A stretch of 32,261 nucleotides of DNA from Acidobacteriota bacterium (GTDB lineage: Bacteria; Acidobacteriota; Terriglobia; Acidiferrales; UBA7541), in the NCBI GenBank assembly GCA_003223295.1, contig QHYM01000335.1, positions 1 through 32,261 on the forward strand, read 5' to 3'. Below are positions 3,438-10,900 of the stretch, in pieces (position 1 is the first letter of the stretch; each line of letters opens with the position of its first letter). The translations under genes were made by a program, and so were the position numbers. The notes below the pieces were generated by a model. That model searched no databases. It saw only the letters and a list, made by a program, of their open reading frames with translations, and was not told where the DNA came from.

Positions 3438-4133
3438 ATGGTCATCACTGAAATTTTCAAATCGATCCAAGGGGAAGGCACACGCGCTGGATTGCCATGC
3501 ATTTTTGTGCGACTGACGGGGTGCAATCTTCGGTGCACGTGGTGCGACACGGCGTACGCGTTTCACGGCGGCCAGAAGATGACGGTCGAGGAGGTTTTGG
3601 CGCGAGTCGACGAATTGGCTGGGCGCGGCGCAGGCAAGCAAGCAAGCGATGCGGCGGTTCCGCTGGTTGAGTTAACAGGGGGCGAGCCACTGCTGCAAGA
3701 GCAGATTTACCCCCTAGCGGAAAGTCTGGTTTCGGCCGGTTACACGGTGATGATTGAAACGAGCGGAGAGCGATTCATCGGACGCTTGCCGAAGGAAGTG
3801 ATCAAGATTGTGGATGTGAAGTGCCCCGATTCTGGCGAGCCGGACACATTCGACGCGAACAATCTGGCAGCGCTGACGGAAAACGATGAAGTGAAGTTTG
3901 TGCTTTCGACGCAACGGGACTACGAATTCGCCCGCGAATTCACGCGGCAGCACCGGCTGGCGCGGCGTGTACGAGGGGTTTTGTTTTCTCCGGTGTTTGA
4001 AGATCCAGAGGGAAAATGGCCGGGGCTTGAACCGCGGCTGCTGGCGGAGTGGATTCTGGCCGACGGCCTGCCCGTGCGGCTGGGACTGCAATTGCACAAG
4101 TTTATTTGGGATCCGGCGACCAAGGGAGTTTGA
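3438..4133 (+). CDS. queE: 7-carboxy-7-deazaguanine synthase QueE (radical SAM)
   Basis: Radical SAM enzyme that contracts 6-carboxytetrahydropterin to 7-carboxy-7-deazaguanine. The ATG at 3438 gives 231 aa and an N-terminus reading MVITEIFKSIQGEG, the family hallmark (substrate-binding FxSxQGEG). The cluster-binding motif is C29-x3-C33-x2-C36 (CNLRCTWC), and an ELTGGEPLLQ motif typical of radical SAM folds follows. The open frame extends upstream to 3339, but that part overlaps the preceding small gene and is not conserved-looking, so I use 3438. queC follows after 54 bases. Confidence 0.95.
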   Translation: MVITEIFKSIQGEGTRAGLPCIFVRLTGCNLRCTWCDTAYAFHGGQKMTVEEVLARVDELAGRGAGKQASDAAVPLVELTGGEPLLQEQIYPLAESLVSAGYTVMIETSGERFIGRLPKEVIKIVDVKCPDSGEPDTFDANNLAALTENDEVKFVLSTQRDYEFAREFTRQHRLARRVRGVLFSPVFEDPEGKWPGLEPRLLAEWILADGLPVRLGLQLHKFIWDPATKGV

Positions 4134-4187
4134 AAAAACGAAGTGAACACCTAGGGAAGGAATGAAGCAAGGAAGAAAAACGGCGAA

Positions 4188-4904
4188 ATGAGCGATGCAC
4201 GAAAAGCGGTGGTGCTGCTGAGCGGGGGAATGGACTCCTGCGTCAGCACGGCGATAGCGCGCGAACGGCATGGCGCGGGAAACATCGCGCTGCTTCACGC
4301 AGGCTACGGGCAGAGGACGCAGCGACGCGAGCGCCGGGCCTTCGAAGAGATTGCGGACTTCTACGGCGCGCGTCAGCGCCTTGTGGTGCAGCTCGATCAT
4401 TTTCGCGCGATTGGCGGGTCGGCGCTGACAGACGAAAAGATTGCCGTGCCGGAAAATGAGTTGGGCGCGCCCGGGCCGCAGGGCAGCGCGATTCCAGTGA
4501 CCTACGTTCCTTTTCGCAATGCTCACTTTCTTTCCGTGGCAGTAAGCTGGGCGGAAGTGATTGGAGCGGGCGCAATCCACATCGGAGCGGTTGCGGAAGA
4601 TAGTTCCGGTTATCCGGACTGCCGGCCGGAATATTACCGCGTGTTTCAGGAGCTGATTCACGCCGGAACGCGGCCGGAAACGCGAATCGAAATCGTGACC
4701 CCGGTCATCCAGATGAAAAAGAGCGAAATCATCCGGCGGGGCCTGGAATTGGGAGCGCCGTTGCATCTTACGTGGTCATGCTATCAGCAAGAAGAGGCGG
4801 CTTGCGGCGCCTGCGACAGTTGCTTGCTGCGTTTGCGCGCATTTGCGGAAGCAGGAGCCACCGACCCTATTCCATATCGGCGCGTGGTTTCCGCAGGGCG
4901 TTGA
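4188..4904 (+). CDS. queC: 7-cyano-7-deazaguanine synthase QueC
   Basis: ATP-dependent enzyme converting 7-carboxy-7-deazaguanine to preQ0. The 238-aa protein has the PP-loop ATP pyrophosphatase motif SGGMDS (12-17) near the N-terminus. The C-terminal zinc site is complete: C198, C206, C209 and C212. Conserved internal motifs include YVPFRN (106-111) and the GAVAEDSSGYPDCR stretch that binds substrate. It closes the queD, small membrane protein, queE, queC group. preQ0 made here feeds tRNA queuosine or DNA/tRNA 7-deazaguanine modification. No dpd or arcTGT genes are in view, so queuosine is the default assumption. Confidence 0.95.
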   Translation: MSDARKAVVLLSGGMDSCVSTAIARERHGAGNIALLHAGYGQRTQRRERRAFEEIADFYGARQRLVVQLDHFRAIGGSALTDEKIAVPENELGAPGPQGSAIPVTYVPFRNAHFLSVAVSWAEVIGAGAIHIGAVAEDSSGYPDCRPEYYRVFQELIHAGTRPETRIEIVTPVIQMKKSEIIRRGLELGAPLHLTWSCYQQEEAACGACDSCLLRLRAFAEAGATDPIPYRRVVSAGR

Positions 4905-5022
4905 GCTTGCGGGGCTTGCCGAGAGCAGGCAGACTTGGAATCCGGCAGGAACAAGAGAGATAATGGGGCGAAAACGCTCCGGGGATTCCGGAGCAGCTCC
5001 CTCACAAAAAGGAGAATGGAGC

Positions 5023-6180
5023 ATGAAGATTTTCAATAAGTCAGTCGTACTCGCCGCAATTCTTGTGGCGGCCCTTGTTTCCGTGTTGACGCCCCGCGCT
5101 GCCGCCCAGACAGGATCGGTCAGCGGACAGATTCTGGACATCAACGGGAAGCCTTGGGCTGGTTTGACCGTGGAGGCAGTGAGCGAGCAAGGTGCGAAGC
5201 AAGACGGTAAAACCGAGACCGACGGCAAATACAGCATTGCCAACCTGCGTACCGGCATTTATACCGTCACGATCACAGCGTTTCCCCCGCCGAATGACAA
5301 GCAGCCTCCGTACACCATGGCTAAGGTCCGAGTAGGGAGTGGAGAAGACGCCAAGGCGGACGCAAACTTCAAGGAGATCATGGCCAAGCAGGGCGCTGCT
5401 GTACAGGAGCAGGTGAAGAAGCAGGAAGAGGCCAAGACCAAGTTTGAGGGAATGAAGGCGCACTTTACCGCGGCTAACGCGATTCTCGAGCAGGAGAAGA
5501 CTGCGAAAGCAGAATTGCAGAAGGCAACTCCGGATCAGCGCGATGCCGCCAAGCAGAAGCTGGCGGACCTGGCTGATCAGGCGGCAAAGGAATATAAGGC
5601 AGCGCAGGAATCCGCCGTCGAAAAGGATCCTAATCTGCACCTTCTGTGGGCCAAGCTCGGAGAAGCCTACGACACGGCTGGACGCAACGACGAAGCCGTG
5701 CAGGCTTATCAGCAGGCGATCAACACCAAACCGGACGTGCCAGGCTACTACAACAATCTTGGAAACGTGCTGGCGCGCGCGGGAAAAATCGATGAAGCCA
5801 AAGCTGCTTATACCAAGAGTGCGGAACTCGATCCACTCAATGCGGCGACGGCGTGGAGAAACTTCGGCATCAGCCTGTACAACGCGAACCGACTGGGCGA
5901 TGCCGTGGAACCCTTGCAGAAGTCCGCGGAGTTGGATCCCAAAAACCCTCAGACCTGGTATCTGCTTGGCGCTTCTCTGGTTTACAGAATGACGATCAAG
6001 AAAGTAGGAGATAAGCAGGTGCCGGAGTTCGCGCCCGGAACCATCGAGGCCTACCAGAAAGCCATCGAACTGGACCCCAATGGAACCTACGGCACGCAGG
6101 CCAAGGCAGGCCTGGAACAATTGCAACAAATGGCGCCGGGAATCGACCTCAAGGTCAACGTGAGAAAGAAGAAGTCCTAA
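5023..6180 (+). CDS. Secreted carboxypeptidase-regulatory-like/TPR protein
   Basis: A 385-aa exported protein. The start at 5023 has a good GGAG nine bases upstream and yields a classic signal peptide (MKIFNKS, hydrophobic core to about 23, AAAQT cleavage region near 29). Residues about 31-115 form a carboxypeptidase regulatory/CnaB-like beta domain (SVSGQILDINGKPWAGLTV...). Residues 120-200 are Lys/Glu/Ala/Gln-rich and probably a coiled coil. Residues about 205-370 hold TPR units (for example NLHLLWAKLGEAYDTAGRND and GYYNNLGNVLARAGKIDEAK). It is likely periplasmic or envelope-associated and mediates protein interactions; no enzymatic motif is seen. The open frame extends upstream to 4843 over the end of queC, but the signal peptide fixes the start. 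It ends just before a strong terminator. Confidence 0.85.
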   Translation: MKIFNKSVVLAAILVAALVSVLTPRAAAQTGSVSGQILDINGKPWAGLTVEAVSEQGAKQDGKTETDGKYSIANLRTGIYTVTITAFPPPNDKQPPYTMAKVRVGSGEDAKADANFKEIMAKQGAAVQEQVKKQEEAKTKFEGMKAHFTAANAILEQEKTAKAELQKATPDQRDAAKQKLADLADQAAKEYKAAQESAVEKDPNLHLLWAKLGEAYDTAGRNDEAVQAYQQAINTKPDVPGYYNNLGNVLARAGKIDEAKAAYTKSAELDPLNAATAWRNFGISLYNANRLGDAVEPLQKSAELDPKNPQTWYLLGASLVYRMTIKKVGDKQVPEFAPGTIEAYQKAIELDPNGTYGTQAKAGLEQLQQMAPGIDLKVNVRKKKS

Positions 6181-6202
6181 GCACAAATTGTCAGCGCATT
6201 CA

Positions 6203-6237
6203 GGCCGGCTCCGCTTTGCGGGGCCGGCCTTTCTTTT
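6203..6237 (+). terminator. Strong intrinsic terminator after the TPR gene
   Basis: A 12-bp GC-rich stem (arms 6203-6214 and 6218-6229, one T-G wobble) with a TTT loop is followed immediately by TTTCTTTT (6230-6237). This is a textbook rho-independent terminator for the plus-strand TPR gene ending at 6180. The T tract overlaps the TAA stop (6236-6238) of the convergent ABC permease gene. Confidence 0.9.
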
Positions 6238-7051
6238 ACCGGTGAGTGAGCGTGCCGTTGATTTTTGTGCGGCGAAGCGACCAGGCGAAGGCAGCCATCG
6301 ACAACGGCAGGAGCACCACCGCGAAGAGAAGAAGGATCTCGAGCGATCGCCAAAGCGCGGCCACGCCGGCGCCGCCCAAGAGTGCGGAGCGCATGGCTTC
6401 CATCGCATAAGAGACGGGATTCAGGCGTGCCACCAATTGCAGCCAGTTAGGCAGAATGCTGACGGGAAACAGCATGCCTCCGGCAACACTCGAAATGCCA
6501 AGGAACAACCACTTGGCGGGATTGCCGCGCTTGAAAATCAGCAGATAACTTGCGGAGAGAATGCCCAAACCCGAAAACGCGAGAAGTGCCGCCGCCATCA
6601 CCGCCAAAACGCCCATCCAATTGGCGGAATGCAAGGGGAATCGAAACAGGATGGCCGCCCAGGCAACGTAGATGACGATGCGCAGCGTCGTGGCCACGAA
6701 TGGATATATGGCGGACCCGGCTACGAAAACGGGAAGGGAGGTTTGTGTGATGAGCAGATGCTCGAGCGTGCCGCTGTCACGCGCTTCCTCGAGGCTGCGA
6801 TCAAAGGAGTCAAGAGCTGCGTTGAGATAATCGAGAAAAACAAACCCCACCAGAGAAAACTCGAAATAGCTGCCGCCCTGGGGCAAGGAACGCTGCAAGC
6901 CGGGAGTGTCCACGAAGCGTGCCACGTAATAAAACATCGCTGCGCCGAAGAGCCCTTCGATGGCCTCCAGAACGAAAACGGTACGGTAGGTACGCGCGAT
7001 GCTGAGATCGCGCCAGAAAAAGAGCCAGACTTCGCGGAGAATGCGCGTCAT
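6236..7051 (-). CDS. ABC-2 type transporter permease
   Basis: Membrane subunit of an ABC exporter, 271 aa from the ATG at 7049-7051. It has about six hydrophobic segments: near residues 23-45, 60-80, 105-135, 140-168, 175-200 and 240-262. It carries the ABC-2 family signature region (DSGTLEHLLITQTS). The ATG overlaps the stop of the ATPase gene by four bases (ATGA), so the two are translationally coupled and form one exporter. The substrate cannot be told from sequence; ABC-2 pairs of this size export polysaccharides, lipids, drugs or peptides. The longer open frame to 7162 lies inside the ATPase gene and is rejected as a start. The neighbouring divergent B1/B2 genes raise the possibility of peptide export, but that is speculation. 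Confidence 0.85.
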   Translation of the reverse strand: MTRILREVWLFFWRDLSIARTYRTVFVLEAIEGLFGAAMFYYVARFVDTPGLQRSLPQGGSYFEFSLVGFVFLDYLNAALDSFDRSLEEARDSGTLEHLLITQTSLPVFVAGSAIYPFVATTLRIVIYVAWAAILFRFPLHSANWMGVLAVMAAALLAFSGLGILSASYLLIFKRGNPAKWLFLGISSVAGGMLFPVSILPNWLQLVARLNPVSYAMEAMRSALLGGAGVAALWRSLEILLLFAVVLLPLSMAAFAWSLRRTKINGTLTHR

Positions 7052-7866
7052 GGGACCTGATCTCCGGACAATGTTTCCGTGCGGTGGCCGGCGAGGCGCA
7101 GAAACACCTCTTCGAGAGTGGCGGAGCCGGTTTTCGTTTTTAACGCCGTGGGAGTGTCGCACGCGAGAAGCCGACCAGCGTGCAGCACGGCCACGCGATC
7201 GGCGAGCAGCTCGACCTCTGGCAATGTGTGCGAAACAAAAAGCAAGGAAGTCTGCCCGTCACGCAGGATTTCTGACTTCAAGAAACGGCGAAATTCCGCC
7301 GCCGCAAAGGCATCCAGGCTGCGCGTGGGTTCATCGAGAAGCAGGACTTCAGGCTGATGAAGCAAGGCGCGGGCAAGACTGAGGCGCTGCACCGTGCCTG
7401 AGGACAAGGTGCGTACCTGGCGATCCATCGCATCAGTCAGTTGGAATTGTTCCGCAAGCTGAGAAACTCGGCGCGCGGCTGCGGAGCGCGAGAGTGCATT
7501 CAACTGGCCAAAGAACAACAGGTTTTCGCGGGCCGTCAGCCGCGCATAGAAACCGTGGTCTGTGCCCGCGTGATAGCCCAGACGGCGGCGGACGTCGCGC
7601 GGCTTGCGGACGGTATCATGGCCTGCAACGCTCGCGTGCCCCCCGGTTGGAACCAGGAGGGTAGCGAGGATGCGAAGGAGCGTGGATTTTCCCGCGCCAT
7701 TCGCGCCAAGAACGGCGAGCGATTCGCCTTCGTGGACTTCGAATGAAACGCTAGCCAGGGCAACAGCCGTGGGTTTCTCGAAAGGCTGAAAGAAGGCGCG
7801 CCAGCCGCTGCGGGCGGGCGGAAAAGATTTGGACAAAGATTCGACTTGGATTGCGGCGGCAGCCAC
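7048..7866 (-). CDS. ABC transporter ATP-binding protein
   Basis: Nucleotide-binding subunit paired with the ABC-2 permease. From the GTG at 7864-7866 it is 272 aa. Walker A is GANGAGKST (54-62), the signature is LSSGT (154-158, in place of LSGGQ), Walker B is LLLDEPT (175-181), and the H-loop is in FVSHTLPE. The Q-loop position reads GYHAGTDHGFYARLTARENL with no Gln, a variant shared with some ABC-2 exporter ATPases (SFYxRLTGRENL type). The start is uncertain: no Shine-Dalgarno precedes the GTG, but a promoter-like -35/-10 pair lies so close that the message could be leaderless. An in-frame ATG at 7944 is the alternative. It is divergent from the PqqD-like gene. Confidence 0.85.
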   Translation of the reverse strand: MAAAAIQVESLSKSFPPARSGWRAFFQPFEKPTAVALASVSFEVHEGESLAVLGANGAGKSTLLRILATLLVPTGGHASVAGHDTVRKPRDVRRRLGYHAGTDHGFYARLTARENLLFFGQLNALSRSAAARRVSQLAEQFQLTDAMDRQVRTLSSGTVQRLSLARALLHQPEVLLLDEPTRSLDAFAAAEFRRFLKSEILRDGQTSLLFVSHTLPEVELLADRVAVLHAGRLLACDTPTALKTKTGSATLEEVFLRLAGHRTETLSGDQVP

Positions 7867-7873
7867 CAGGAGT

Positions 7874-7902
7874 CTTATAGCGTGTCTTCCCTTGGAAGAC
7901 AA
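7874..7902 (-). promoter_or_regulatory. Putative sigma70 promoter with overlapping operator palindrome for the ABC exporter
   Basis: Read on the minus strand, TTGTCT (7897-7902) and TATAAG (7874-7879) are separated by exactly 17 bases. A perfect palindrome, GTCTTCC-CTT-GGAAGAC (7884-7900), covers most of the spacer and enters the -35 box, the usual place for a repressor operator. A transcript would begin around 7866-7868, on top of the GTG chosen for the ATPase. The motif match is seen directly; the function is inferred. Confidence 0.45.
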
Positions 7903-8046
7903 TTGAAACGGGGCCTGTGGAAGCGCAGGGACACCCGGCGCCATCGCCCGGTACCATAGCGAAGCGGCGCAATCCCCGGTAGAATACTGACCGAGATAAC
8001 TGTCCCTCTCAGTCCGCTGACAGAAGTTTCTAGAGGAGCCGTGCCG

Positions 8047-8352
8047 ATGCTGACATTCAAGGATCGCGCTGCCGCACCCGCGCACGTCCTCGTACGGCTT
8101 CTGGACCAGGAATCGGTTTTGCTTAACCTGGAAACGGAACAGTACTTCGGCCTTGATGAAACCGGCACGCGCATGTGGCAATTGGTGACCGCTTCACCGA
8201 ATATTGACGCTGCGTATCAGGAGCTGCTCACGGAATACGACGTCCAGCCGGAGCTGCTGCGTGAGAACTTGACCGAATTGCTGGGCCACCTCGTCGAACA
8301 CGGTTTGCTCCAAGTGTCGCCCGCTGATGCTGGAAAGCCTGCGGCGGTTTAG
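8047..8352 (+). CDS. PqqD-family peptide chaperone (lasso-type B1 / RiPP recognition element)
   Basis: A 101-aa PqqD-like protein. The family folds as a winged-helix RiPP recognition element that binds the leader of a precursor peptide and hands it to modifying enzymes. Typical features are the early beta hairpin (VLVRLLDQESVLLNLETEQYF), the GLDETGTRMWQLV motif (PqqD: LNxtgxxiWel), and the helical C-terminal half ending in LLGHLVEHGLL. The ATG at 8047 is preferred over the GTG at 8041 because GGAG (8035-8038) sits eight bases ahead of the ATG but only two ahead of the GTG. The stop overlaps the next gene by 26 bases, so it is coupled to the B2 peptidase. This B1 plus B2 order is that of split lasso peptide systems. 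Confidence 0.8.
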   Translation: MLTFKDRAAAPAHVLVRLLDQESVLLNLETEQYFGLDETGTRMWQLVTASPNIDAAYQELLTEYDVQPELLRENLTELLGHLVEHGLLQVSPADAGKPAAV

Positions 8353-8791
8353 CGCGCTGGAGCGCCCTGCGCAAATGCTGTTTTTGCGCGCGCTGGCAAT
8401 GTTGCCGCTGGTTTCTCTGAGCTTGAGGTTGCGCGGTTTCCAGCCGACTCGATCAACGCTGCAAAGAACTCTCGCGCGCCGAACGCCCCAAGTGGATTCA
8501 GATTCCCTCAACATGAAAATGGTTTTGGCCGCGCATATGGTCAACGCCGCGGACCGGCACGGGCTGGTTCACCCTTCCTGTCTCGCAAAATCCCTTACGT
8601 TGTGGTGGCTGCTCGGGCGGCAGGGAATAAGCTCTCGCCTGCGCATCGGAATTCGCAAGCAGAACGATCAATTGGAAGCCCACGCCTGGGTTGAGCGCGA
8701 GGGCGTGGCGCTGAATGAGCCAGAAGAGCGGCACCACCACTACGCAGCTTTTGACGCTGCACTCGCTACGTGGACCGAGGATGAACCCTGA
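8327..8791 (+). CDS. Lasso peptide biosynthesis B2-type transglutaminase-like protease
   Basis: A 154-aa protein matching the lasso peptide B2 family (transglutaminase-like cysteine protease, Transglut_core3), which removes the leader peptide with help from the B1/PqqD protein. Catalytic residues are visible: Cys85 in HPSCLAKSLTLWWLL, His119 in EAHAWVE, and an acidic partner around Glu131 (ALNEPEE), where many homologues have Asp. The N-terminal helical region (residues 1-75) is also typical. The ATG lies inside the end of the PqqD-like gene. No asparagine-synthetase-like cyclase, kinase or other modifying enzyme follows; the next large gene is on the opposite strand. The pair is therefore an orphan or minimal RiPP maturation unit, or its partner genes lie elsewhere. 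Confidence 0.8.
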   Translation: MLESLRRFSALERPAQMLFLRALAMLPLVSLSLRLRGFQPTRSTLQRTLARRTPQVDSDSLNMKMVLAAHMVNAADRHGLVHPSCLAKSLTLWWLLGRQGISSRLRIGIRKQNDQLEAHAWVEREGVALNEPEERHHHYAAFDAALATWTEDEP

Positions 8792-8993
8792 TCGGGCTCC
8801 CGGGAGAGATCCAAGGCGGTTCAGACCTTTCTCTGCAGGGGCGTTGAAGTACTACTTCGGATGCGGTACCCAGGGAGACTATCCACACCCCCGGCATTTC
8901 ATATCGTTCTCAAAACAAAGGGGTTACCAACTTCTTTGGAGACTCCCCCGCCCGGCCTTAATCCAGAGGGAGGGCGGGGGCTCAAAGGCTTAG
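8781..8993 (+). CDS. Short ORF after B2; speculative RiPP precursor
   Basis: A 70-aa open frame whose ATG (8781) lies inside the end of the B2 gene, behind a weak GAGG. The N-terminal part is Arg/Pro rich (MNPDRAPGRDPRRFRPF). The middle contains KYYF-GCGTQGD-YPHPRHF. If the Gly of GCGTQGD were the core start, an Asp at ring position 7 would be available, as in 7-residue lasso rings. Against it: there is no Thr at the penultimate leader position, Arg codons AGA/AGG are common, and its last third is encoded by a GC-rich hairpin and overlaps the stop of the convergent PDZ gene. I list it because it is the only small frame in the right place, not because it is convincing. Confidence 0.2.
   Translation: MNPDRAPGRDPRRFRPFSAGALKYYFGCGTQGDYPHPRHFISFSKQRGYQLLWRLPRPALIQREGGGSKA
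8945..8980. terminator. GC-rich hairpin between convergent genes, possible terminator
   Basis: A perfect 9-bp inverted repeat (CCCCCGCCC at 8945-8953, GGGCGGGGG at 8972-8980) with an 18-base loop lies between the B2 gene (ends 8791) and the PDZ gene (ends 8990, minus). Neither side has a clear T tract, so intrinsic termination is only probable. It could act for both directions. Confidence 0.4.
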
Positions 8994-10081
8994 ATATTGG
9001 TGCGATGGGCGATCAAGCGCTTTGTACGTGAAGCGGGAGCGGGCAACTCCACGGTCACCGAAACTTCGCTTTTGTTGCGCAAAACGCCGAGCTTTACGGT
9101 TTGGTTCTGGTTCTTATCCTTTGCTTCCCGTTTGGCCGCGAGTTTCTCGCGCAAATCGCCGACCGTGCGAACACGCTCGCCATTGACGGAAGTAATGACG
9201 TCGCCAGCTTTTACGCCCGCCTTTTCCGCCGCCGAACCGGGATTCACTTCGCGAACCAGGATGCCCTCGCCATCGGGAGCTCCAAAGAATGTGGCGAGTT
9301 GGCCGTTGAGATCTTCCGCATCAATCCCGAGGCGCGGGGAACCACCCATCAGGAACCGGCTGCCGTCCCATTCCATGGGCGGAATCATCGGAATTTCCGG
9401 CATGCTAAACGCGAACTCTCCGGCAGCGCCGGGCCTGGGAGTCAGGACCTTGAAGGGGTGGCGGCGCTCTTCGGCTTTCCCGAGAGCAACGGTTACGGTC
9501 TGGGCGTGGCCATCACGCCACACGGTGAGCTGCGCGGGGCGCCCCGCGGGAATCTCGCGGATCATGCGGCGAAACTGCGCCGCGCCTTCGACGCGTTGCC
9601 CATTGATTTCCGTGACGACGTCGTTTTCCTTGAGACCCGCTTTCGCGGCCGGACTGTCCGGAACGATGGAGCTGAGAACGACGCCGCGTTCGGCGGGTAG
9701 TTTCAATTCCTTAGCCGTATCACCGTTAACCTCGTGGAGTTCAACGCCAAGCCAACTCGAGCCTTCATCGTCCAGCAGGACTTTCAGGTCATCGTCTCCA
9801 TCGGCCAGCTGGGGGAAAGCGTCCAGTTGCTCAAGCGCCTGCCGGTGCTGGGCGAGAACCATTTGCGACGCCAGCATCGCACGCGACTCCGCGAGTTTGG
9901 CGACTTCGTCTTGACGCCCTTGAAGCCTCGCTTGGAGCCGTTCCAGCTTTCTTTCCAGGCGGGCAATGGCAGAGTCATCCGGACAAAGCGTTTGCGAATT
10001 TGCAGGAGGCGCGGGCAGAGCGATCAGCACGAGGCTGAGTGCCGCGACCCCTCCGGTAATCAAAAGATTGCGCTTATTCAT
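8990..10081 (-). CDS. Exported double-PDZ domain protein
   Basis: A 363-aa protein with a signal peptide (MNKRNLLITGG, hydrophobic to about 24, cleavage near ANSQ), a coiled coil (about 38-88), a first PDZ domain (about 109-200, WLGVELHEV...) and a second (about 248-345, LGIDAEDLN...). There is no trypsin-like or S41 protease domain, so it is not HtrA or CtpA. It is more likely a periplasmic binding or sensing module recognising exposed C-termini or unfolded envelope proteins. The ATG at 10081 has an excellent GGAGGGAAGGGA upstream; an earlier GTG overlaps this ribosome site and is rejected. It is the last gene of the sigma/anti-sigma/DUF4097 group, 48 bases after the preceding gene, which suggests a link to envelope stress. 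Confidence 0.85.
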   Translation of the reverse strand: MNKRNLLITGGVAALSLVLIALPAPPANSQTLCPDDSAIARLERKLERLQARLQGRQDEVAKLAESRAMLASQMVLAQHRQALEQLDAFPQLADGDDDLKVLLDDEGSSWLGVELHEVNGDTAKELKLPAERGVVLSSIVPDSPAAKAGLKENDVVTEINGQRVEGAAQFRRMIREIPAGRPAQLTVWRDGHAQTVTVALGKAEERRHPFKVLTPRPGAAGEFAFSMPEIPMIPPMEWDGSRFLMGGSPRLGIDAEDLNGQLATFFGAPDGEGILVREVNPGSAAEKAGVKAGDVITSVNGERVRTVGDLREKLAAKREAKDKNQNQTVKLGVLRNKSEVSVTVELPAPASRTKRLIAHRTNI

Positions 10082-10129
10082 TTTCGTCCCTTCCCTCCTT
10101 ACCACTTAGACGCAGCAACGGCAAAATGG

Positions 10130-10900
10130 TCAGACGCTCGATCGCAGGACAATCAAGCGGATTCCTCCATTCACCGTACGCAGATGAATGGGAACTCCGC
10201 CACGGCCCAGCTTGCCGTGCATTTCCCGGGGACGGTCGGTGCTCTCCATGGTGATGGGAAGCTCGGAAGAAAAGTTTCCGTTCAGGCAGCGGGCGTCGAT
10301 CTCCGCCTGGAGATCGGAAGGCACGGCAAGAACCAGCGACCCGTTGGTAGTTTCCGCGGTGGCGCCAGGCTTCTCCGGCGCGTGGGCCAGTTCGAGGTGC
10401 ACGTTGCCATTGGTTGTGTGAGCCCGAACGTTTCCGCCGCCTTCGAACACCTCGATGTCTCCGTTCACGGTATGCAAGTCTTCCACGTTCTCCAGGCCGG
10501 AAATACGCAGTGTGCCGTTCACCGTGCCGATATGTTCGACGTGAACGCGATGCGGCACATGAATCGTATATTCCACGGCGACCTCCACGCCTTCGTTTTG
10601 CGGATACCGCGTGGTGACCGCGACGGCATCCGGACGCGCGTTCACCTCAATCGAAACGCGCTCGAGATCGGCTTCCCGCTGCTTCGCCGTTTTTACGGCG
10701 TGAATTTCCACCTCGTTGCGGTCCCATCCCTGAACGTCAACAGTGCCGTTGACGTTTTGCAGCTCGAACGTGCCGCACGGCTGCAACGGCACCGTCTGGT
10801 TGAAGTCTTTGCTGATGGCGTAGCTGGGAGCGGCCCAAAGAGCAGCCACAAGAAGAAGGGAAAAACAAAAAGCTGTCGCGCGAAAACCGTGCCGTGACAT
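10130..10900 (-). CDS. Exported DUF4097 beta-repeat protein
   Basis: A 256-aa protein with a signal peptide (hydrophobic 8-24, then PSYA cleavage). The mature part is a right-handed beta-repeat domain of the DUF4097/putative adhesin type. The recurrent motif is [VT]-x-NG-x-[VLI]: QNVNGTVDV, TVNGTLRI, TVNGDIEV, TTNGNVHL, TTNGSLVL, CLNGNF and TVNGGIRL. The family is common downstream of ECF sigma/anti-sigma pairs in Acidobacteria; its molecular role is unknown. AAGGGGG lies about nine bases upstream of the ATG. It sits 96 bases after the larger DUF4097/TonB_C gene and 48 before the PDZ gene, all on the minus strand. The Asn-Gly motif here contrasts with Gly-Gly in its larger neighbour. Confidence 0.85.
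   Translation of the reverse strand: MSRHGFRATAFCFSLLLVAALWAAPSYAISKDFNQTVPLQPCGTFELQNVNGTVDVQGWDRNEVEIHAVKTAKQREADLERVSIEVNARPDAVAVTTRYPQNEGVEVAVEYTIHVPHRVHVEHIGTVNGTLRISGLENVEDLHTVNGDIEVFEGGGNVRAHTTNGNVHLELAHAPEKPGATAETTNGSLVLAVPSDLQAEIDARCLNGNFSSELPITMESTDRPREMHGKLGRGGVPIHLRTVNGGIRLIVLRSSV

Follow-up and report, generated by a model that had tools for sequence, protein, structure and literature searches.

The window, by which we mean the whole stretch of 32,261 nucleotides that was analysed, carries genes for QueE, QueC, a TPR/CarboxypepD_reg protein, a divergent ABC-2 permease and ATPase, B1, B2, a convergent PDZ protein, a DUF4097 protein and a TonB-domain protein, in that order. The features around B1 and B2 are as follows.

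4843..6180 (listed ORF), plus strand: CarboxypepD_reg/TPR protein, conserved left flank of the site (PF13620 and TPR matches; synteny); the likelier start is the ATG at about 5023
6236..7051, minus strand: ABC-2 permease, a neighbour judged to lie outside the system (PF01061; distribution at the site)
7048..~7866, minus strand: ABC ATPase, a neighbour judged to lie outside the system, start uncertain (PF00005; distribution as for the permease)
8047..8352, plus strand: B1, PqqD-type RiPP recognition element, RRE (PF05402, 58.3 bits; TbiB1 5v1u, E 7.4e-8; dN/dS 0.07-0.26)
8327..8791, plus strand: B2, predicted transglutaminase-like lasso leader peptidase with Cys85/His119 (NF033537, 77.4 bits; PF13471, 72.0 bits)
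8990..10105, minus strand: PDZ protein, convergent, conserved right flank of the site (PF13180; anchor search; synteny)

Profile searches with both proteins bore out the original prediction of a PqqD-like RRE protein overlapping a B2-type cysteine protease. B1 matched PF05402 well above the cut-off of 23.4 bits. Its best NCBIfam match was lasso_PqqD_Bac (NF033536) with 48.9 bits, under the cut-off of 80, and it reached 33.2 bits against NF033530, under the cut-off of 70, so that both lasso-specific B1 models were missed; its nearest solved relative is a lasso B1, TbiB1. B1 is predicted to bind a lasso leader. Its ORF runs from 8041 to 8352 with a GTG start or from 8047 with an ATG start, the latter being the more likely. 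B2 exceeded the cut-offs of both PF13471 (26 bits) and NF033537, lasso_biosyn_B2 (33 bits), and the two ORFs overlap by 26 bases. Cys85 and His119, the residues already named for the protease, were found to be invariant in all 11 aligned window-type B2 proteins. The AlphaFold model of B2 (mean pLDDT 59.5) was too weak for catalytic geometry and was used for secondary structure alone, and no solved relative of B2 was credible by sequence (best E 0.27). A plasmid search for B2 gave 0 matches, and the 12 named records with B2 were all Acidobacteria MAGs, nine of them labelled gp2.

Neither a cyclase, a kinase nor a precursor was found among the ten neighbouring genes scanned around B1-B2, and the next gene is indeed the convergent PDZ gene. 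The precursor profile found no precursor in the window; its matches in the same genome at E <= 0.01 lay solely on contigs C419 (1.7e-21) and C31 (3.7e-5). Because the cyclase and the precursor are not beside B1/B2, the window is not a complete lasso cluster by itself.

Gene content of the site across the genus

The host is one of 36 genomes, all drafts, of one genus of Acidobacteriota. The site was anchored on the PDZ gene and on B2, and the regions were mapped with the window proteins and the full-cluster proteins. A full lasso cluster occupies the TPR-PDZ site in six of the 36 genomes (G006, G034, G004, G020, G022 and G005, with G022 and G005 so counted although their right flank is on a separate contig). 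An intact B1-B2 pair alone was found in 14 (G000, which is the window's own genome, G012, G019, G031, G011, G028, G013, G024, G027, G029, G014, G008, G023 and G035) and a broken pair in two: G018 has B1 in two frames, possibly by assembly error, and G025 has lost B1 and has a cut B2. The site holds B1 alone in two genomes (G003 and G001), the nucleotidyltransferase alone in five (G016, G033, G010, G007 and G002), a different arrangement in one (G032) and no cluster gene between ABC and PDZ in three (G017, G015 and G030); three others (G009, G021 and G026) have no PDZ anchor of the site and were left unscored. A lasso cyclase just beyond the pair, which the original prediction had named as evidence against it if always present in relatives, exists in six of 36 genomes and hence not always. 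Since the intact pair is syntenic in 14 of 36 genomes and is under purifying selection (below), it is not due to chance.

The full form has the order B1-B2-cyclase-precursor-HprK-like kinase-(methyltransferase)-nucleotidyltransferase and is of the phosphorylated-lasso type, with the nucleotidyltransferase between the kinase side of the cluster and the PDZ gene. Each of the six precursors is encoded between the cyclase and the kinase and has 41-50 residues; common to all are KKxYxxPxLxVYGxL, a Thr shortly before the core, a near-terminal Thr and an Asp that is usually core position 9. Lasso cores usually begin with G, A, S or C; many of the predicted cores here begin with K, T, R or N. The near-C-terminal Thr was invariant in all 20 aligned precursors despite varying cores, and is a possible kinase target. 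The ring size and the cleavage site are those predicted by the published Thr(-2) rule for leader cleavage (PMC10368454).

Comparison of G035 with its sister G034 revealed a single deletion reaching from about codon 13 of the cyclase into the C-terminal part of the nucleotidyltransferase. What remains of the nucleotidyltransferase is 85% identical in protein to that of G034; the remainder of the cyclase has been lost together with the precursor and the kinase, and B1 and B2 are intact. The flank-gene tree unites the 13 other intact pairs with the two broken pairs and the three empty sites in a single clade (support 0.999), and the reduction in these 13 genomes is therefore older. The pair would derive from a full B1-B2-C-A-K-(MT)-N cluster at the same site by loss of everything after B2.

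The divergent ABC-2 permease and ATPase genes do lie upstream of B1 on the minus strand, as originally described, but their linkage with the pair does not look functional. The ABC genes are beside the intact pair in four of 14 genomes and absent from the site in the other 10, and they are present at all three sites from which the pair is wholly missing. A role for them as the dedicated exporter (D genes) was rejected on this distribution.

Unlinked cyclase, precursor and kinase genes

A search of the genus with a full-cluster cyclase as query turned up unlinked cyclases of the lasso type (36-58% identity to it, E <= 8.6e-119) in 13 of the 14 pair genomes, two of them in G024, and distal precursors matched the precursor profile at E <= 1.1e-13 in 13 of 14. 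At the fetched distal loci, the precursor motif and the kinase adjoin the cyclase in 13 of 13, a nucleotidyltransferase is present in nine of 13 and a methyltransferase in some. The window's own genome has both a cyclase homologue and a YxxPxL/Thr(-2) precursor, on a contig that ends 524 bases upstream of the cyclase:

G000:C419 5606-7468, minus strand: distal cyclase (E 1e-123)
G000:C419 5467-5613, minus strand: distal precursor (precursor profile, E 1.7e-21)
G000:C419 4313-5464, minus strand: HprK-like kinase ORF

Of the two explanations first offered for the missing cyclase, a partnership with a distant one is strongly supported by comparison of genomes. The best NCBIfam model for the distal cyclase is the lasso cyclase NF033535 (353 bits, under the cut-off of 525), and the kinase matched HprK models weakly, below their cut-offs. 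Ser is at position 2 in all 28 cyclases compared; among the AsnB-like proteins of the window's genome, the three with a recovered N-terminus (six tried) have Cys there.

B1 and B2 are absent from the 1.5 kb upstream of the distal cyclases (0.5 kb in the window's genome, where the contig ends), except for a stub in G024, in which a cis-type cyclase at the second site is preceded by the last 32 residues of a B2. Other B2-remnant matches before distal cyclases were weak (E 0.1 to 1) and were taken as chance, a real B1 in G034 excepted. In 11 of 13 genomes the cassette adjoins a conserved exopolysaccharide operon (TPR, O-antigen ligase, Poly_export, Wzz/GNVR and epimerase); the two exceptions are the window's own genome, where the contig ends, and G035, which has just a TPR gene fragment. 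At E <= 1e-60 the window's genome gave no match to the O-antigen ligase by which the distal site is recognised in relatives. Contig positions place pair and cassette at least about 60 kb apart in G014.

Two further features were seen at these loci. Many type I cassettes have, after the kinase, a large DUF7948/SBBP beta-propeller protein of about 1,180 aa (L121, 80-3619; homologues in L120, L126, L128, L132, L134, L068 and L069). The precursor ORF of G035 (L128, G035:C4, about 10067-10260) contains the leader motif twice, the second copy (MPYAEPxLT) being imperfect, and looks as if it had been duplicated in tandem and then fused.

The cassette and the pair tend to co-occur. In seven genomes (G008, G011, G012, G019, G024, G027 and G035; 84-98% complete) the B2 of the window-type pair is the sole PF13471 protein found, and the contig of the distal cyclase has no PF05402 match. 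The precursor profile matched 24 of the 36 genomes, 23 of them at E <= 1.1e-13, and all 23 have a B2 matching that of the window at E <= 4.5e-20; as 20 precursors from these very loci went into the profile, many of its presences are by construction and it is the absences that are informative. When the 10 genomes with a linked B2-cyclase of this family were set aside, 26 remained for comparison: 13 of the 14 that have an intact pair also have a distal precursor, and none of the 12 that lack one has a good precursor (Fisher 2.7e-6, uncorrected for kinship, and with five of the 12 incomplete: G015 63%, G030 74%, G021 77%, G026 85% and G016 86%).

Within the clade, the pair has been broken or lost three or four times (G018; G025; G030; G015 with G017), the separation of G030 from G015 and G017 having a support of 0.84. 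Each time, the damage to the pair coincides with a distal precursor or cyclase that is absent, frameshifted or degenerate. Neither gene is present in G018, G025 or G015 (63% complete); G017, the sister of G015, keeps the cyclase, but the leader there has lost the P and L of YxxPxL; in G030 the cyclase is split over two frames and the precursor is absent. The O-antigen ligase (E <= 1e-60) is missing in G025, G015 and G023 and partial in G018, so that some of the cassette losses may be losses of the whole region.

The distal cassettes are of two main types. Type II is carried by G019/G031 and by G029/G028/G013, which stand in different parts of the flank-gene tree. The distal cyclases of G019/G031 cluster with those of G028/G013/G029. 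The flank genes place G019/G031 with G000/G012; the B1-B2 phylogeny, in broad agreement with the flanks, joins them to G000/G012/G018 (support 0.974), their B1 being 86-89% identical to that of the window. An AU test on 11 distal cyclases (G024, G035, G017 and G034 left out) rejected a grouping of G019/G031 with G000/G008/G012 (dlnL 508). Since the grouping of the cyclases conflicts with that of both the flanks and B1-B2, we conclude that cassettes were exchanged while the pair stayed.

On the sequence evidence, we consider it likely that the window pair is the trans-acting, leader-processing half of a lasso pathway split over two loci. B1 would bind the conserved leader KKPYxxPxLxVYG...T of a precursor encoded elsewhere, and B2 would cut after the residue following Thr(-2). 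The unlinked Asn-synthetase-like cyclase on C419 would then close the ring, probably on core Asp9, and the HprK-like kinase and nucleotidyltransferase probably modify the C-terminal Thr region. As the distal C-A-K cassette lacks B1/B2 genes, selection would continue to maintain the pair. With somewhat less assurance, we favour the wider reading that B1-B2 is a constant hub for leader processing, fixed in the chromosome, and is used by cyclase-precursor-kinase cassettes that can replace one another at a second site, next to the exopolysaccharide operon. If so, the genus changes its lasso product by cassette replacement, with the leader-removal enzymes unchanged.

Selection on the pair and alternative readings

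In the pair clade, dN/dS (gene pairs with dS < 1.2) was 0.07-0.26 for B1 and 0.14-0.25 for B2, and the median pN/pS was 0.23 for B1 (78 pairs) and 0.31 for B2 (91 pairs). G025, with its truncated B2, was omitted, as was G018 for B1, and G035 was placed in neither group. The full-cluster group had seven members, among them G002 with a full cluster away from the site, and its pN/pS of 0.38 for B1 and 0.50 for B2 (21 pairs each) comes from more divergent, partly saturated pairs, so that its difference from the pair clade was not interpreted. The pair is most likely still working and not decaying.

A decaying remnant, left functionless by deletion of the cyclase and drifting to loss, would account for the frameshifted B1 of G018, for the lost B1 and cut B2 of G025, for the three sites without either gene and for the pair of G023 without a partner. 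The losses occur, however, in genomes whose distal cassette is gone or broken, and the dN/dS values of the clade together with the invariant Cys85/His119 speak against drift; this reading is improbable, and for the pair clade it is largely refuted by dN/dS. G023 (97% complete, 30 contigs) does have an intact pair without such a cyclase or precursor, and its pair may have been recently orphaned.

The other explanation first offered, a minimal system that needs no cyclase and in which B1-B2 release a simple linear peptide as in the LPP systems (linear polyphosphorylated peptides) reported from Bacillota (PMC13381572), can draw on cyclase-free B1-B2-kinase-nucleotidyltransferase sets in relatives (L075, L169 and L195). 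At the window site, however, neither kinase, nucleotidyltransferase nor leader-like ORF was found, and the strong matches of the genus leader profile adjoin cyclases, which makes a cyclase-free function of this pair improbable. Least probable of all is a substitute or redundant pair serving the C31, C175 and C355 clusters of its own genome instead of C419, as those clusters carry their own B2 and the seven pair genomes without any other B2 have a C419-type or equivalent distal cassette.

The two-locus reading is thus preferred, and for the window's genome its pairing with C419 rests on the relatives, because three other B2 genes (C355, C175 and C31), each near an Asn-synthetase-like gene, are present. 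These belong to further lasso-like loci (C175, L072; C31, L073; C355, L071), of which C175 has two adjacent Asn-synthetase-like genes.

Relation to known systems and other split loci

The enzymes are each of a known kind; what differs here is an essential RRE/peptidase pair encoded apart from its cyclase and precursor, which many species have conserved and which seems to work for cassettes that can be exchanged. No description of lasso B1/B2 unlinked from the cyclase was found in the open-access literature searched, and one may exist elsewhere in print. In the phosphorylated lasso systems of the paeninodin and bsf type, the core genes are in one cluster (PMC5067487, PMC10368454). Those systems share with the present one the split B1/B2, the Asn-synthetase-like cyclase, the YxxPxL leader and the HprK-like kinase, and bsf the nucleotidyltransferase too, but here B1-B2 is unlinked from C-A-K. 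The soil metagenome cluster BGC 44.1 (PMC9064862), as far as its order and gene sizes alone allow, corresponds to the full form of the site: the order is ABC permease-ATPase-B1-B2-C-A, and the sizes of 822, 810, 303, 471, 1863 and 150 bp are similar, with best matches in Acidobacteriia. It differs from the window in being a full cluster, with its ABC genes called D1/D2, and its expression gave no detected peptide.

Enzymes encoded away from their RiPP cluster are known in other settings. The unclustered lanthipeptide proteases (PMC8960859) are likewise leader proteases lying away from the cluster and found by co-occurrence, but they belong to another RiPP class and other protease families, whereas here a lasso RRE-peptidase pair was left by cluster loss. 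The citrulassin PAD (PMC12971885, PMC8498205) is, as here, a lasso enzyme outside the cluster, but it is a tailoring enzyme and not the essential B1/B2. LPP (PMC13381572) resembles the window site as a lasso-like RRE system without a macrolactam cyclase; its sets share modifying enzymes of the paeninodin type (a kinase and the nucleotidyltransferase LppN), none of which is beside the window pair, and a kinase and nucleotidyltransferase beside the RRE without a cyclase were not found among the window neighbours scanned.

Mining tools seek B1, B2, cyclase and precursor in one cluster. RRE-Finder (PMC7470986) yielded almost 8,000 proteins whose best match was its discrete lasso RRE model; only about 4,000 of them are found together with peptidase and cyclase, and the others were called possible false positives. 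Because a cyclase-free pair under selection has a nameable partner here, some 'orphan' RREs may belong in a single pathway with 'B-less' cyclases. The distal cassette expressed alone is predicted to fail, and the genus offers natural combinations of a single B1-B2 with several types of leader and of cyclase, which should be useful for tests of RRE promiscuity.

Lasso core genes have been separated in more than one way in this genus. G003 and G001 keep B1 alone at the window site (L115, 14390-14671, and L117, 2022-2309) and have B2-cyclase-precursor-kinase elsewhere (L068 and L069), where the flanking stretches covered gave no B1 match; in G003 the distal B2 has a PqqD-type match at a distance of about 12 kb. 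G034 has a full cluster at the first site and B1-cyclase-precursor-kinase without B2 at the second.

Across the class, PF13471 matched 48 of 151 sampled genomes. Outside the genus 46 B2 loci were listed, and the stretches around them, reaching at most about 4 kb to each side, contained a cyclase in 35 cases and none in 11, two of the latter being very short stretches cut by contig ends (L174 and L175). Cyclase-free B2 genes are thus a minority but not rare, and kinase or nucleotidyltransferase matches were found at several of those looked at. Sets of B1-B2-HprK-like kinase-nucleotidyltransferase with no cyclase nearby were seen in L169 (G179, 3551-6650), L195 (G023:C10, 3407-6606) and L075 (G014:C34, 7231-10120), that of L169 with a YxxPxV leader-like ORF; these may be LPP-type systems of Acidobacteriota. 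In another genus of the same family, L147 (G084:C68, 3917-4360) carries a B2 without B1 or cyclase within about 4 kb.
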